Below, piece by piece: positions 404 to 7,377 of a DNA stretch of 12,042 bases. Position 1 is the stretch's first letter. Each line of letters begins with the position of its first letter. Source of the stretch: Candidatus Latescibacterota bacterium (GTDB lineage: Bacteria > JAAXHH01 > JABIQT01); the NCBI GenBank assembly GCA_018667995.1, contig JABIQT010000629.1, positions 1-12,042 on the forward strand, given 5' to 3'. The position numbers and the translations under genes are program-made. A model generated the notes under the pieces. The model was not told the origin of the DNA. It was given only the letters and a program-made list of their open reading frames with translations, and made no database searches.

Positions 404-3400
404 TCAGCCAATCCTCTCAGCCAGAGCTGGCGAGAGGATTTCAAGCTCAGTCTCGAGCAGATCAAGGGCATCTTCCACACCGGAAATGTTCTTTTCCCGG
501 CCCATAATTTCCAGTGCAGAGGCGGCCTTCACGACTGATTCGGCTGAGAAAACCGCGGCAGAGCCTTTGAGCGTATGGGCGTTGCGGCGCAGTTCCGGCA
601 TATCATCGTCAACAACTGCTTCTCGAATTGCCTTTACAAGCTTGGGGCACTCCTCCATAAACATCTGTGCGATGTCCCGCAGCGCGGCTTCATTTCCTCC
701 CAATTGCTCCAGGGCTCCGTTCCAGTCAAGCAGGCTCTCCCCGGCATTCTGGGTGGGCTTGGTAAACGGTACTTCAGGGGCTGTCTCGACAGGAGACATC
801 GTAGCATCTTTGTCTTCACTCTTCTTTACAATGAAGGGGCGCGTATTTGCTGGTAGCACTACGGGATTGGGGCCCTTTCCCGATTCCGGGCTATCGGTCT
901 CGATGGGGGCTTCCAAGGGGTGCGAATGTGCCTCGATAGTCTCATACAGCGTTTCTGCGCGTATGGGTTTCGATAGGTAGCCGTCCATACCCGCATCCAG
1001 GCACCGTTCCCGGTCGCCCTTCATGGCATGGGCGGTCATCGCTACAATCGGTATGTGCAGTCCTGACGCGGCCTCTCTGGTTCTGATTACACGCGTAGCC
1101 TCCAAGCCATCCATCTCGGGCATCTGTACATCCATCAGGACCAAATCAAATAAGCCCTGTTCTAGTTGGTCGACAGCTTCCTGCCCATTATTGGCGATGG
1201 TGACCGTGTGTCCTCGTGATTGGAGCATCATAACAGCTACTTTCTGGTTGACCAGTCCGTCCTCGGCCAGCAGGATCTTCAGCGGATGCAGTACCTGCGA
1301 CTGCTGCGTATCCAGCTCTGTGGTCCGATTGCCATCCTCATCCGGTTGGCAGATCCGGGCAATGGCGTTGAATAGCTCCGACTGTTTGACAGGTTTGGTC
1401 AGGACATGCGCAATTCCGAGCTCTTGGACCCTGCTAACCTCCTCGGGCCGGCCCGCAGAGGATAGGGCTATCACTGCCGTCTGCGCCAATTCCGGGCGTC
1501 GACGGATTTCCTCAGTCAACGAGAATCCATCCATATCAGGCATGGATATATCTACGAGAACGAGCGGAAAGGGACGTTTAGAATCCATCGCCCGCTCCAT
1601 GGCTTGAAGCGCAACCGCGCCACCGTCTACGCTAAGTGACTGCATGCCCCAGTTTTTCAGCATTTCCTCCAGTATAAGACGATTCGTGTCGTTATCATCG
1701 ACGACAAGAATCATCATCTCCTCGACGATTTCAGGTAGTGTTTCAGGCGCGCTGGCGGGAAGGTCCTGTTCTTCGAAGAATGCTGTGAAGGCAAAGGTGC
1801 TGCCTTTGCCAAGTTCGCTCTCGACCCACACTCGTCCTCCCATCATTGTCGCCAATTGGGACGAGATGGCCAGGCCAAGCCCTGTGCCGCCGAATCGCCG
1901 CGACATCGACTGGTCCGCCTGGCTGAAAACACTGAAAATGAACTCCTGCTTATCCTCAGGAATACCAATTCCGGTGTCGCGGACCGAAAACTGCAAACCG
2001 CACAGCTCCTCAGCTCCAGCGACAGCCTCCACGTAAACGACGACTTCTCCTGTTTCGGTAAATTTGATCGCATTTCCAACCAGATTGACGATAATCTGAC
2101 GAAGCCTACCGGGATCACCGATGAGTGCGTCTGGAATGCCTTGGGGAACATGCGATGCGAGCTCAAGCCCCTTGTCTGATGCCGAGATCCCCAGATTCTG
2201 TAGGGTGTTTCCCACCGTGTCCCTTAGGCTGAAGGGAATTAACTCCAGTTCCAGACGGCCGGCTTCTATCTTGGAGAAATCCAGAATATCATTGAGCAGC
2301 ACCAGCAGCGAATCTGCCGACTGATCAACGAGGTGGAGATACTCTCGTTGCTGTGCAGACAGCTTAGTGTTCAGAAGCAGCTGTGTCATCCCTGTGATGC
2401 CATTCATCGGCGTACGAATCTCATGGCTCATATTGGCCAGAAACTCACTCTTTGCCCGGTTCGCATTCTCGGCAGCATCCTTTGCCACGCGGAGTTCTTC
2501 CTGTGATCTTACCAGGTCGTGCGCCGTCTGCTCGAGCAATTCATTCTGGCGATACAGCTGCCTGTCGACGCGCGTCCTCTCCGCATCGATGCGCCCGAGG
2601 GATCTCGCATTCCACCAGATGAGCACATTGAAGGCCATCACGTTTCCCAATGCAAACAGTGAAAATCCGAATTCTATATCATAGAGGCCCCACCGTCTTC
2701 CCTGAAATTGTGCCCATCCCAGCACCAGGGGTATTACGAAGGCTGCAGGCAAGAGGCGCCGTGCCATGATGCCACCCGCGGTGGTGCTCACGAGCGTAGC
2801 GGTGGGTTCTCGCATGGGCCGAGCACTCAGTATCCCGATACACATCACTCCGAATCCCAACGCCGTATTCAAGGGGATCGGTATGTCGCCTGCGATGCGA
2901 TAGATAACAAGGGTACTGTAGATCGCGCCGGTAAGAGCGAGGAGAGCGATTATGGAGATAGATAGGATTCCGGTGAGCGGAAACCAGTAGTTGACAATCT
3001 TGACGTCGAGGATGAGCAGCACGAAGGCAATAAGCAGAAACGTCTTGGCTGTGTCCGGACTCATGCGGCTGCCACTGATTTTCGAACTGAAGAGAAATTC
3101 ATCAATTCCCAGATCACCCATCATGGGAATGTCTGCTATTCGGGCGGAAGCGATCAATACGGCAACGATCGCAAACAGAAGCCCAATGATCCGGCGTTTC
3201 TCGAGCAGCGGTTCCGGCAGCAGAAGCCAGAGACTGACACCCAGAACCAGGAATTCGACCGCGGTCATAGGATTCATGGGCACGCGGCCAGGTTGCACCA
3301 TGCTCGTGAGGACAGCGATGTCGAACTGCCAGCCTATGAGCACAAGCACAGACAATGTGATCACGATGCCGCCGGCGAGACGCCCTCCCACCTTGAGCAA

Positions 3401-3436
3401 CCAGACTAAGCCTGAGTCGAAATCATTGTTGGACAT
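404..3436 (-). CDS. Membrane hybrid sensor histidine kinase (HisKA-HATPase-REC-REC-HPt)
   Basis: This 1010-aa kinase carries a full set of phosphorelay domains. About eight hydrophobic segments lie in residues 15-275, ending in [11 protein letters not shown] and a WWNARSL helix, a layout common in uncharacterised membrane sensor modules. There is no HAMP domain. A coiled-coil linker (about 283-330) leads to HisKA, with phospho-acceptor H338 in MSHEIRTP. HATPase_c follows, with N-box N451/N455, DTGIGIP at 487-493 and GGTGLGL at 516-522. REC1 (about 574-697) has D580/D581, D629 and K681. REC2 (about 718-836) has E725/D726, D769 and K823. A variable Pro-rich linker precedes a C-terminal HPt with H954 in NAHTLKGSA. 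All phosphotransfer residues are intact. The architecture is BarA/ArcB-like, so the final output is expected on another protein; the co-oriented REC-glutamate dehydrogenase gene 225 bp upstream is the nearest candidate. The ATG lacks a clear Shine-Dalgarno sequence. The sensed signal is unknown. Confidence 0.95.
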
Positions 3437-3661: not shown

Positions 3662-5308
3662 TTATGGGAATACTCCGCGGAGTAACTTGGCCTGGGTGAC
3701 GCGCTGGATGCCCTCAATGAGAGCGGCGGTTCTCAGGTCATAGCCCTCACTGGTTGCCCTCTTGATGGATCGTTCAAAGGCGTCCAGAAGAATGGCGTGC
3801 AGTCGTTCATTTATTTCCTTCAGCGTCCACATATAGTTCTGCGTGTCCTGAACCCACTCAAAGTACGACACAGTCACACCACCTGCGTTGCCGAGAACGT
3901 CGGGCAGAACAAAGACACCTTTACCGTTGAGCACCTCGTCGGCTTCCAGCGTTGTGGGTCCGTTCGCTCCCTCTGCGAGGATCTTGCAGTTAATGCGATC
4001 CGCATTCTCCCCCGTGATCTGATTCTGAAGCGCACAGGGAGCGAGGACGTCACACTCGATCTCAAGTAGTTCTTCGTTGGTCACGGTGTCACCCTCGGTG
4101 TATCCTTCCAGGAAACGATTTTCAGCTACGTAATCAAACAAGGCCTGCACCGACAGGCCGTTTGGATTATAAATACCTGTTGTTACATCGCTTACCGCGA
4201 GTACTTTTGCTCCATCCTCTTCAAGAAACTTAGCGGTGCTGCTACCGACGTTACCGAAGCCCTGCACGACAGCAGTGGCACCGTTCAGATCCAGTCCTGT
4301 ATGATCCGCAGCTGCCTCTACCAGGTACACCAGGCCCCTGCCCGTCGCCTCGCGACGTCCCAGTGAACCACCCAGAACCACAGGTTTACCGGTGACCACT
4401 CCCGGAACGGTGTAACCTTTCTGTTGACTGTAGGTATCCATCAACCACGCCATTACTTGCTCATCGGTACCCATGTCCGGAGCGGGGATATCTTTGTCTG
4501 GACCGATGATATCAATAATCTCGGACGTATAGCGCCGTGTCAACCGTTGGAGTTCACGTCGTGATAGCCCTGTGGGATCAATCCGGACACCGCCTTTCGC
4601 TCCGCCGAACGGCAGGTTCATCAAAGCGCATTTCCAGGTCATCCACATGGCGAGCGCCGAAACTTCTCCCAGGTTCACGTCGGTATGATATCGGATACCA
4701 CCCTTGGTTGGCCCCATAGTCAGCAGATGTTGGACGCGATAGCCAAAGACCGTCTCCACCTGGTTGTACTCGTCTCGCCTGAATGGAAAGGTAACGATAT
4801 GGGTTCTCTGGGGGAAGAGCAGGCGCTCCTGCACGTTTACATCCAGCCCCATGAGTTGGGAGGCCTTAAGAAATTGCTGTTGCGCCAACCGAAACATGGT
4901 GGCGTCCCACTCTTCTTTGCGAGCTCTTGTTCGCTCTATCGCATAGTGAATAGAGCGCGTTAGCGTTCGACTATTAGTCTCGGTCTTGATCAGGAAATCC
5001 TGGGCGCCTTCCTCCACTGCCTTCGCAGCAAGCGTGACATCGTCGAGGCTTGTTAATATGACAATTGGCATCTCGGGTGCCGCGGCTCGTACCCGTTCCA
5101 GAGTTTCGAGTTCCTGGCTGTCCGGCAGCACCAAATCCAAGAGGACTACATCGATGTTGCCACCTGACAGCCGTTCGATGCCCGTAGACAGGCGATCAGC
5201 CGAGTTCAGGTCGAATACTGACGTAGTGGATTCCTCCAGCAGATTTTGAATTAAGCGCGCATGGATTGGATTGTCCTCAATCAAGAGCACTGAGATGCGG
5301 TCTGCCAT
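3662..5308 (-). CDS. Response-regulator receiver domain fused to NAD(P)-dependent glutamate dehydrogenase
   Basis: Residues are numbered from the ATG at 5308 (548 aa). That start is chosen because GGAGG sits five bases upstream; an in-frame TTG four codons earlier overlaps this Shine-Dalgarno sequence and is unlikely. Residues 5-125 are a receiver domain with every catalytic residue: E11/D12, phospho-acceptor D58 in LLDLVLPDS, T86 and K108. A helical linker (about 120-138, charged YAIERTRARKEEW) leads into a full-length hexameric-type GDH (about 138-548). GDH residues include K202 in TKGGIRYH, K226, catalytic K238 in GGAKGG, catalytic D278 in PAPDMGT, a dinucleotide-binding GFGNVG at 350-355, and NAGGVTVSYFEWVQD with S481, which favours glutamate over leucine-type substrates. 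The GDH half ends at the usual RGVFP-type terminus, so nothing is missing. The reaction is reversible oxidative deamination of glutamate to 2-oxoglutarate and ammonia. The cytosolic enzyme could be switched by phosphorylation of the receiver; this is inference. A second possible start for an unfused GDH is the ATG at 4897. Confidence 0.96.
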   Translation of the reverse strand: MADRISVLLIEDNPIHARLIQNLLEESTTSVFDLNSADRLSTGIERLSGGNIDVVLLDLVLPDSQELETLERVRAAAPEMPIVILTSLDDVTLAAKAVEEGAQDFLIKTETNSRTLTRSIHYAIERTRARKEEWDATMFRLAQQQFLKASQLMGLDVNVQERLLFPQRTHIVTFPFRRDEYNQVETVFGYRVQHLLTMGPTKGGIRYHTDVNLGEVSALAMWMTWKCALMNLPFGGAKGGVRIDPTGLSRRELQRLTRRYTSEIIDIIGPDKDIPAPDMGTDEQVMAWLMDTYSQQKGYTVPGVVTGKPVVLGGSLGRREATGRGLVYLVEAAADHTGLDLNGATAVVQGFGNVGSSTAKFLEEDGAKVLAVSDVTTGIYNPNGLSVQALFDYVAENRFLEGYTEGDTVTNEELLEIECDVLAPCALQNQITGENADRINCKILAEGANGPTTLEADEVLNGKGVFVLPDVLGNAGGVTVSYFEWVQDTQNYMWTLKEINERLHAILLDAFERSIKRATSEGYDLRTAALIEGIQRVTQAKLLRGVFP

Positions 5309-5418
5309 TTGAACCTCCAATTATTACTTTGATCGGTGTGTCGAAGTCGGTCTCTATTTTGTGATAACCAATTGAACAGGAAGAGTCTTAGATATCGCAA
5401 CATTGCGGATAGGGAGAA

Positions 5419-5584: not shown

Positions 5585-6439
5585 ATGATACGTCTGACAT
5601 TGACTTGTTTGTGTCTTGTTACATGGTTCAGCAATTCTGCGGCACAGGACGCTGCGGCGGATGCCACGAAACTTTGGGAGCACGGTCTCACTGGATCCGT
5701 TGCCATGTCGCAGGTAGCCTTCAAAGATTGGGCTCAGGGAGGAGAGAGCGCTCTGGCGTGGACGCTCAACTTGGATGGCAAGTCTGAGAGAAAGGGAGCC
5801 ACTACGGACTGGACTACATCCTATAAGGCAGGTTTCGGACAGACGCGCCAGGGGGATCGTGGGTTTCGAAAGACAGACGATAAGATAGATATAGACACGG
5901 TGCTGATCTACAAGGTCGGGACATATATCAATCCGTTCGTGTCAGCGACTCTGAAAACACAGTTTGCAAACGGAATTACCTATGACGCGAACGACGTGGG
6001 GACAGTCGTTTCGAGGTTCTTCGATCCGGCCTATCTTACCCAGAGTGCCGGAGTGGGTTACCAGCCTCTCCCTGAGGTCAAGACGCGCCTCGGTGCCGCC
6101 TTGCGGGAGACATCGACCCGCCGGTTTACGAATTTCTCCGATAGCCCCAGCACTCTGAAGATAGAAGACTTTAGAGTCGATGGAGGTCTCGAATCAGTCA
6201 CCAACGTGGACTGGAATTTAGCGGCCAATATCATCTTCAAGGGAAAACTCGAGATATTCCAGGCCATCACTGGGAGCCAGAAGGATCCGATTGTTCGTAC
6301 CGATACTACTCTGGTCATGTCGGTCAATAAGTACATCTCTGCGAACATTAATGTGCAGGTCCTGAGGGACAAACTGTCCAGCCCTGATACTCAGATTAAA
6401 CAGACACTCTCTGTGGGGTTGAATTATTCCGTATTCTAA
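5585..6439 (+). CDS. Predicted outer-membrane beta-barrel protein, DUF3078-like
   Basis: This 284-aa protein begins with a signal peptide (residues 1 to about 20; hydrophobic LTLTCLCLVTWF followed by SNSAAQ as a probable signal peptidase I site). The mature part consists of alternating polar/hydrophobic strands with many W, Y and F residues. It includes a KDWAQGGESALAWTLNLDG segment near residues 47-65, characteristic of DUF3078 proteins, which are mostly from Bacteroidota and relatives. It ends in GLNYSVF; a terminal phenylalanine on the last strand is the usual recognition signal for barrel assembly by BAM. About 10-12 amphipathic strands can be picked out by eye. GAAGGA lies 8 bases before the ATG. 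The gene is divergent from REC-GDH and shares its control region, and it is convergent with the REC-ATPase gene. The function is unknown; no substrate or transport role can be deduced. The DUF3078 assignment is from pattern memory and is moderately certain. Confidence 0.8.
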   Translation: MIRLTLTCLCLVTWFSNSAAQDAAADATKLWEHGLTGSVAMSQVAFKDWAQGGESALAWTLNLDGKSERKGATTDWTTSYKAGFGQTRQGDRGFRKTDDKIDIDTVLIYKVGTYINPFVSATLKTQFANGITYDANDVGTVVSRFFDPAYLTQSAGVGYQPLPEVKTRLGAALRETSTRRFTNFSDSPSTLKIEDFRVDGGLESVTNVDWNLAANIIFKGKLEIFQAITGSQKDPIVRTDTTLVMSVNKYISANINVQVLRDKLSSPDTQIKQTLSVGLNYSVF

Positions 6440-6492: not shown

Positions 6493-7377
6493 CTATCGCT
6501 TCTCAAGCGTCATCTGGATCTCATTACCATCGTCGTTAAATGTTACAGCATCCATAAACGTATTGATTAGCAAAAGCCCACGACCACTGAGTTTCTCCAG
6601 GTTGTCGTGGGCTTTTGGGTCTGGGAGTGCTGTTGGGTCGAATCCTGGCCCTTCGTCCCTGACAGTGTACACGGCCGCCGTCGATGAGATCTGAACGGTA
6701 ACGTGCAGCTTGCGATCTTTGAAGGGCGCTTGAAGGGATCGTGTCCGGGCTGCAGACTCAAAGTCACGGCCCCCTGTCTCACGGAGTGACGAATCCAACT
6801 CAAGATTGCCGTGGTACAAGGCATTCATCAATGCCTCGCAAAGGGCAATCCCAGCTTGAACCAGAGATGTCTCGTCACAGAAACGCCTGCGGTTAAGCAT
6901 ACTTTGAAGGTATCCTACGAGCGCCATTACGAGTTCCAAATCATTGCCCAGGACAAATCTATGCTCGGTGTGTTCCAGATATTCCAGTATTTGTCGTTCC
7001 TGGCGCCCGGCTTTCGTCATCTGGAGTACTTCAGTAACGGTTGGAATAAGATCTGACGTGAGCGCCTGTTTGGTTACGTAGCTGGCTGCCCCCTTGCGGA
7101 GTGCGTTAACGACGATGTCCTCGTTGCCGTAGGCCGTCATCATTATTACTGGTAGGCCGGGATAGGAGCTGGTGATCTCCTCTACCAAAGACATGCCGTC
7201 CATGTCCGGCATCATGAGATCGGTTATGATCAGTTCTGGCTGATTTTCGGAGATGAGACTTAGTGCACTTCGCGCATTGTCCACCTCGATCGGCGTTAAG
7301 TTGGTACGCGTCTCGATGAGTGAGGATACAATACGTCGTTCAACTGCTGAATCGTCCACGATGAGAATGTGCGGCAT
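6493..7377 (-). CDS. Response regulator with RsbW-like ATPase (anti-sigma/serine kinase type) output domain
   Basis: This 294-aa protein starts with a receiver domain (about 1-120) whose residues are all present: D8/D9, phospho-acceptor D53 in ITDLMMPDMDG, T81 and K103. The C-terminal half (about 140-294) is a HATPase_c domain of the SpoIIAB/RsbW class, not a histidine kinase: N-box EALMNALYHGN (181-191), DEGPGFD (241-247) and LSGRGLLLINTFMD (263-276), with no HisKA helix. Members of this class bind ATP and either phosphorylate a STAS antagonist on serine or hold a sigma factor. Here the receiver would gate that activity. No STAS, PP2C/SpoIIE or sigma-factor gene is visible nearby, so the partner lies elsewhere. 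A loop at about 192-222 is longer than in minimal RsbW. The ATG at 7377 has only a weak AAAGAG-like upstream sequence. The gene is transcribed toward the outer-membrane protein gene and is divergent from the TatA-like gene. Confidence 0.92.
   Translation of the reverse strand: MPHILIVDDSAVERRIVSSLIETRTNLTPIEVDNARSALSLISENQPELIITDLMMPDMDGMSLVEEITSSYPGLPVIMMTAYGNEDIVVNALRKGAASYVTKQALTSDLIPTVTEVLQMTKAGRQERQILEYLEHTEHRFVLGNDLELVMALVGYLQSMLNRRRFCDETSLVQAGIALCEALMNALYHGNLELDSSLRETGGRDFESAARTRSLQAPFKDRKLHVTVQISSTAAVYTVRDEGPGFDPTALPDPKAHDNLEKLSGRGLLLINTFMDAVTFNDDGNEIQMTLEKR

Follow-up and report, generated by a model that had tools for sequence, protein, structure and literature searches.

In Actinobacteria, the GarA/OdhI-PknG system acts on glutamate dehydrogenase (GDH), 2-oxoglutarate dehydrogenase and GOGAT by means of a Ser/Thr kinase that works via a separate FHA protein. 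The targets of two-component systems, as mostly known, are transcription, second messengers or motility; in the locus described here, the conserved neighbour of a complete hybrid histidine kinase is the enzyme that links glutamate and 2-oxoglutarate. Ammonia sensing by GrtKR in Burkholderia glumae relies on a conventional two-component system with DNA-binding output and not on a fusion (PMC12918730). According to a census of two-component systems in archaea, receiver (REC) domains joined to standard metabolic enzymes have been observed many times in bacteria (PMC5847659, citing Galperin 2006 and 2010), and its archaeal REC-enzyme examples are phyletically narrow, involving KaiC, a BcsA-like protein, thioredoxin reductase and pyruvate phosphate dikinase. 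We found no precedent for REC-GDH in the literature searched, in keeping with an earlier note on this DNA, which knew of no described GDH with a built-in phospho-receiver; the enzyme-output tables of Galperin 2006/2010 might list one. Joining REC to a metabolic enzyme is a known trend, of which a REC-GDH with a partner kinase is apparently an undescribed case.

The window (the whole stretch analysed, 12,042 nucleotides of contig JABIQT010000629.1 from a Candidatus Latescibacterota bacterium) carries on its minus strand, at 3662..5308 with the stop included, a REC-GDH fusion gene of 548 aa, which reads as one uninterrupted frame and is conserved over its full length in the order and beyond. A Shine-Dalgarno GGAGG (5314..5318) lies 5 nt ahead of the ATG, and stops interrupt the corresponding frame of the plus strand at 3662-5308. 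The receiver (residues 7-114, 4967..5290), with the acidic pair E11/D12, the acceptor D58, T86 and K108, matches Pfam Response_reg at 67.8 bits (cut-off 30.2). It forms a 136-residue N-terminal extension ahead of a complete hexameric-type GDH, composed of the N-terminal dimerisation/substrate domain (residues 166-294, 4427..4813; ELFV_dehydrog_N, 178.9 bits), with K202, K226, K238 and D278, and the dinucleotide-binding domain (residues 313-545, 3674..4372; ELFV_dehydrog, 272.1 bits), with GFGNVG at 350-355 and S481; all three scores are far above cut-off. The earlier note had described a single unbroken frame with a Shine-Dalgarno sequence before the ATG (3662-5308, given with no strand) and a phospho-receiver joined to a GDH with intact catalytic residues; the reading holds, the listed residues (E11, D12, D58, T86, K108, K202, K226, K238, D278, GFGNVG) all stand at the positions given, and Pfam and residue conservation agree. 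The fusion also matches the Thermotoga maritima GDH 1b26 over its whole length (E 1.3e-137). Its AlphaFold model, a monomer with mean pLDDT 79 and low confidence around the active site, reaches a Foldseek TM-score of 0.90, normalised by target, against the small hexameric GDH fold. By key residues, whole-length similarity and fold, the protein would be classed as a small hexameric GDH (ELFV), for which GDH activity and a hexamer are predicted. Annotation calls the protein only a "Glu/Leu/Phe/Val dehydrogenase dimerization domain-containing protein", a name under which the receiver goes unnoticed.

Across 14 fusions of the window's order, the nine single residues named above and the GFGNVG motif are invariant. 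The five receiver phosphorylation residues also never vary among 34 fusions drawn from several phyla, down to 59% identity; the acidic pair, acceptor Asp, Thr/Ser and Lys expected of Response_reg are thus all in place. On the enzyme side, K226 and D278 are kept in all 34, K202 and K238 in 33, and S481 is present in the fusions, its position being unreadable only in locus L059, whose GDH stops at a contig edge. We take K202, K226, K238, D278 and S481 to correspond to K89, K113, K125, D165 and S380 of Clostridium symbiosum GDH, which are catalytic or glutamate-binding. A substrate other than glutamate (Leu/Phe/Val) is disfavoured by the retention of K202 and S481, given their presumed roles. Mean column identity is 0.68 in the receiver against 0.78-0.89 in GDH. 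In a Latescibacterota MAG, the divergent fusion paralogue L056 (4268-5914) has an intact receiver and a GDH with K202L and K238M, stands without a kinase alongside, and shares its genome with two further ELFV genes. To judge from these substitutions, a receiver that still works seems to precede a GDH that has lost catalysis, a pseudoenzyme, and catalysis would be dispensable in this one fusion lineage.

The two parts are connected by an alpha5/linker helix (residues 115-136, 4901..4966, minus strand), recognized from conservation and the model, which ends in a family motif EWDSPMF (EWDATMF in the window, residues 133-139). Within this joint all 32 sequences used have E133, W134, M138 and F139, and the motif is more conserved than the surrounding receiver. 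In the AlphaFold model, the final helix of the receiver (113-135) and the first GDH helix (137-153) follow each other with hardly a break. No indel falls between K108 and P166 in the 34 fusions; since indels are rare throughout the protein, this gap-free junction would be only supportive of a constrained connection. As for the ancestry of the receiver, its closest non-GDH relatives among the matches listed precede GGDEF, HD-GYP, GAF/PAS or histidine-kinase modules, which supports an earlier guess that it was captured from a kinase or GGDEF-type protein.

The fusion occurs in more than 40 other genomes or plasmids, from Latescibacterota-like MAGs, Planctomycetota, Myxococcota, Gemmatimonadota, and Alpha- and Gammaproteobacteria. 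In the window's order, 13 further genomes have it at full length and free of stops (75-82% identity), and in a fourteenth relative (G014) the GDH runs off the contig end. Titled genome records, which are partly the same genomes as the order relatives and whose MAG names are given as deposited, yielded at least 33 fusion loci with the same in-frame junction. They belong to Latescibacterota and related MAGs, Gimesia, another planctomycete, Myxococcales, Enhygromyxa, Gemmatimonadetes, Sinorhizobium/Ensifer, Ruegeria, Zobellella and several Halomonadaceae. The scan used patterns drawn from the REC-GDH family, which unrelated or further REC-GDH fusions could escape. Nine plasmid records carry the fusion, among them the megaplasmid of Sinorhizobium fredii NGR234. 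Nearly all genomes examined from the window's phylum have the gene (14 of 16, plus the truncated G014), and elsewhere its occurrence is patchy: 6 of 151 genomes in the family of Halomonas beimenensis, 2 of 247 in that of S. fredii, and none among 44 species in a loose sample from outside the window's order.

A maximum-likelihood tree, whose root is not known, groups the fused GDHs in a single clade apart from 25 stand-alone GDHs (support 100/100). Given this monophyly, the simplest reading is that a single fusion event was followed by patchy horizontal spread. Repeated independent fusions are disfavoured by the grouping of the sampled fusions, found with patterns of the REC-GDH family itself, in one clade, and the titled loci (at least 33) rule out a one-off fusion. 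Viral contigs contained no related sequence, which speaks against a viral origin. The earlier note had named a sequencing or assembly error, seen as a stop or frameshift between the domains, as one finding that would overturn its reading; relatives were checked, and the same stop-free junction in the 13 order genomes, the titled loci and the 9 plasmid records excludes an assembly or frameshift artefact.

The next gene on the same strand encodes a hybrid histidine kinase of 1010 aa (404..3436, minus strand), identified as the partner by Pfam, adjacency and co-inheritance. It combines several transmembrane segments, read from the sequence, with HisKA (328-393), HATPase (440-551), two REC domains (the second at 721-834) and Hpt (922-1001). 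The gap of about 225 bp to the fusion is longer than in relatives; no terminator was seen in it, and a promoter/terminator scan gave numbers near chance. A kinase homologue adjoins the fusion in all order relatives examined. More broadly, a hybrid kinase lies beside it in 29 of 33 listed loci. Most often the kinase is downstream; it precedes the fusion in two Gimesia loci and is convergent in Enhygromyxa. The loci without one are L042, L044, L056 and L059, the last of which ends at a contig edge inside GDH. When eight other genomes are searched in full with the window kinase, the top match is the fusion-adjacent gene; in a ninth (G066) the match begins where a contig ends, as would fit the same gene. 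Between kinase transmitters and fusions, pairwise distances correlate at r = 0.965, a value reached by none of 2000 permutations. The correlation shows that the two genes are inherited jointly; it is no sign of interaction, as non-interacting neighbours also give such values.

The phospho-accepting His of HisKA, the Asp of both RECs and the His of Hpt are conserved in 25-26 aligned kinases, so that, with D58 present in all fusions, the chain of intact His and Asp sites typical of a multistep phosphorelay is complete. In two Myxococcales loci (L040, 10379-10774; L043, 5710-6138) Hpt is a separate small gene behind a HisKA-HATPase-REC-REC kinase, still within the cassette. The sensors change with lineage. 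The window kinase and its relatives have a multi-TM region, Ruegeria has CHASE+GAF+PAS, Myxococcales have CHASE, Gimesia has dCache+HAMP+PAS, Halomonas and Zobellella have GAF and PAS, and Sinorhizobium has PAS. Sensors that vary while transmitter and output stay the same suggest a reusable signalling cassette; no second output gene is conserved in it. Before the first membrane segment of the partner kinases of family f3 (L016, L019, L030, L033), ASTEIDA-like repeats occur in variable number. On the S. fredii NGR234 megaplasmid the kinase was confirmed next to the fusion, and the cassette there is complete.

The genomic complement of GDH genes was also considered. In the 13 genomes searched from family f3, which belongs to the window's order, no ELFV gene other than the fusion scores above cut-off, and the large GDH-180 is absent from the three f3 genomes tested. 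The window's own genome has a second GDH-like gene, 33% identical. In S. fredii USDA 205 the single ELFV gene is the fusion, and GDH-180 is also present. Full-length GOGAT was found in all eight genomes tested. When glutamate is supplied by GS-GOGAT, GDH likely runs mainly as glutamate oxidation and a futile cycle must be avoided; such avoidance would justify a switch. On an Ensifer adhaerens plasmid (L108, 1-9650) the cassette lies near genes for methylaspartate mutase, methylaspartate ammonia-lyase, a CoA-transferase, a CoA ester lyase and fumarate hydratase, a group that is likely a glutamate-degradation cluster.

We consider it probable that the two genes constitute a phosphorelay cassette in which the kinase phosphorylates D58 of the fused receiver and thereby changes GDH activity, gating GDH against GS-GOGAT. 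The membrane hybrid kinase (3436-404 in the window) would sense a lineage-specific signal, and phosphate would pass from the kinase His to its receivers, to Hpt and finally to D58. Phosphorylation of D58 would alter the alpha4-beta5-alpha5 face of the receiver, a change that could reach the GDH hexamer by way of the length-constrained alpha5-EWDSPMF-alpha1 junction and alter its activity. The earlier note, which makes no mention of the kinase, had likewise proposed that a phosphorelay tunes glutamate/2-oxoglutarate flux, perhaps by altering hexamer packing, which would be one candidate route. With GOGAT encoded in these genomes as well, the cassette would most likely serve to gate GDH, probably in the glutamate-oxidising direction, against GS-GOGAT. 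From genetic linkage and co-inheritance with an Hpt-containing kinase we infer phosphotransfer from kinase to fused receiver; the change of activity, the direction of control and the hexamer are likewise predictions. With somewhat less assurance, we lean towards the wider view of a mobile cassette by which a two-component phosphorelay directly controls a central carbon-nitrogen enzyme, with interchangeable sensors and, in some bacteria, the cell's sole GDH under kinase control.

The receiver might instead set the location or the partner of GDH, recruiting it to the membrane kinase or to an enzyme such as GOGAT, and leave the active site unaffected. In the window and related loci the sensor region of the kinase is indeed membrane-embedded, and these genomes encode GOGAT. 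GDH is also known to form complexes with GOGAT, and one of the matches is PDB 7mfm ("Glutamate synthase, glutamate dehydrogenase counter-enzyme complex"). However, the gap-free passage from the last receiver helix to the first GDH helix exceeds the needs of a tether, and the Sinorhizobium kinase has only PAS sensors in the Pfam scan, which rules out membrane recruitment as a common theme; we regard this alternative as unlikely. Still less probable is a reversed flow, in which the GDH part senses glutamate, 2-oxoglutarate or NAD(P)H and sets the gain or loss of phosphate on the receiver, serving as a phosphate sink or feedback arm of a kinase with other outputs. Such a role would suit L056, where the receiver stays intact while GDH has lost two key lysines, and the hybrid kinase's own two receivers could serve other targets. 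Yet L056 lacks an adjacent kinase, the cassette lacks a conserved second output gene, 33 of 34 fusions retain the catalytic residues, and the fusion, as the sole small GDH of f3 genomes, is probably used as an enzyme. That the receiver is vestigial and non-signalling, or the whole an assembly or annotation artefact, is hardly credible: although the receiver is less conserved overall than GDH, its phosphorylation residues do not vary in the 34 sequences even at the lowest identity, and unrelated assemblies, like the plasmid records, share the identical junction, with the kinase travelling along.

If phosphorylation tunes GDH as we propose, the cassette would provide a fast, enzyme-level switch at the carbon-nitrogen crossroads that requires no change in gene expression, made by one fusion event and passed between phyla together with its kinase. 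The complete cassette of S. fredii NGR234 makes the hypothesis directly testable there. Two genes from the cassette, the window encodes a receiver fused to an RsbW-like HATPase_c_2 domain (6493-7377, minus strand), beyond a DUF3078 protein divergent from the cassette (5585-6439, plus strand); and in a Gemmatimonadetes MAG (L045, 790-2520) the gene directly upstream of REC-GDH begins with another receiver.

With respect to known systems, the fused GDH has the catalytic residues and fold of stand-alone hexameric GDHs (T. maritima 1b26, 54% identical over the whole enzyme; Bacillus RocG/GudB), which lack the receiver extension and from which the fused enzymes separate as a clade of their own. The partner kinase shares the HisKA-HATPase-REC...Hpt layout of the BarA/ArcB/TorS hybrid kinases, and its best NCBIfam match is the BarA model, at 541 bits, below the BarA cut-off of 890; their output is a DNA-binding regulator, whereas the neighbour here is an enzyme-fused receiver. 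Control by GarA/OdhI-PknG in Actinobacteria (PMC5448819, PMC12321487) is phosphorylation-based, post-translational and set at the glutamate/2-oxoglutarate node, and in this it resembles the switch proposed here. In contrast to that separate FHA regulator, an Asp receiver is built into the enzyme itself, and the Pfam scan, which covered the fusion and further window proteins, detected no FHA domain. With enzyme-output response regulators the fusion shares an N-terminal REC, an intact acceptor site and an enzyme domain behind it, an arrangement that fits environmental control of enzymes. The archaeal examples (PMC5847659) include no GDH and are narrowly distributed, whereas the REC-GDH fusion spans several phyla and is accompanied by a conserved kinase partner.
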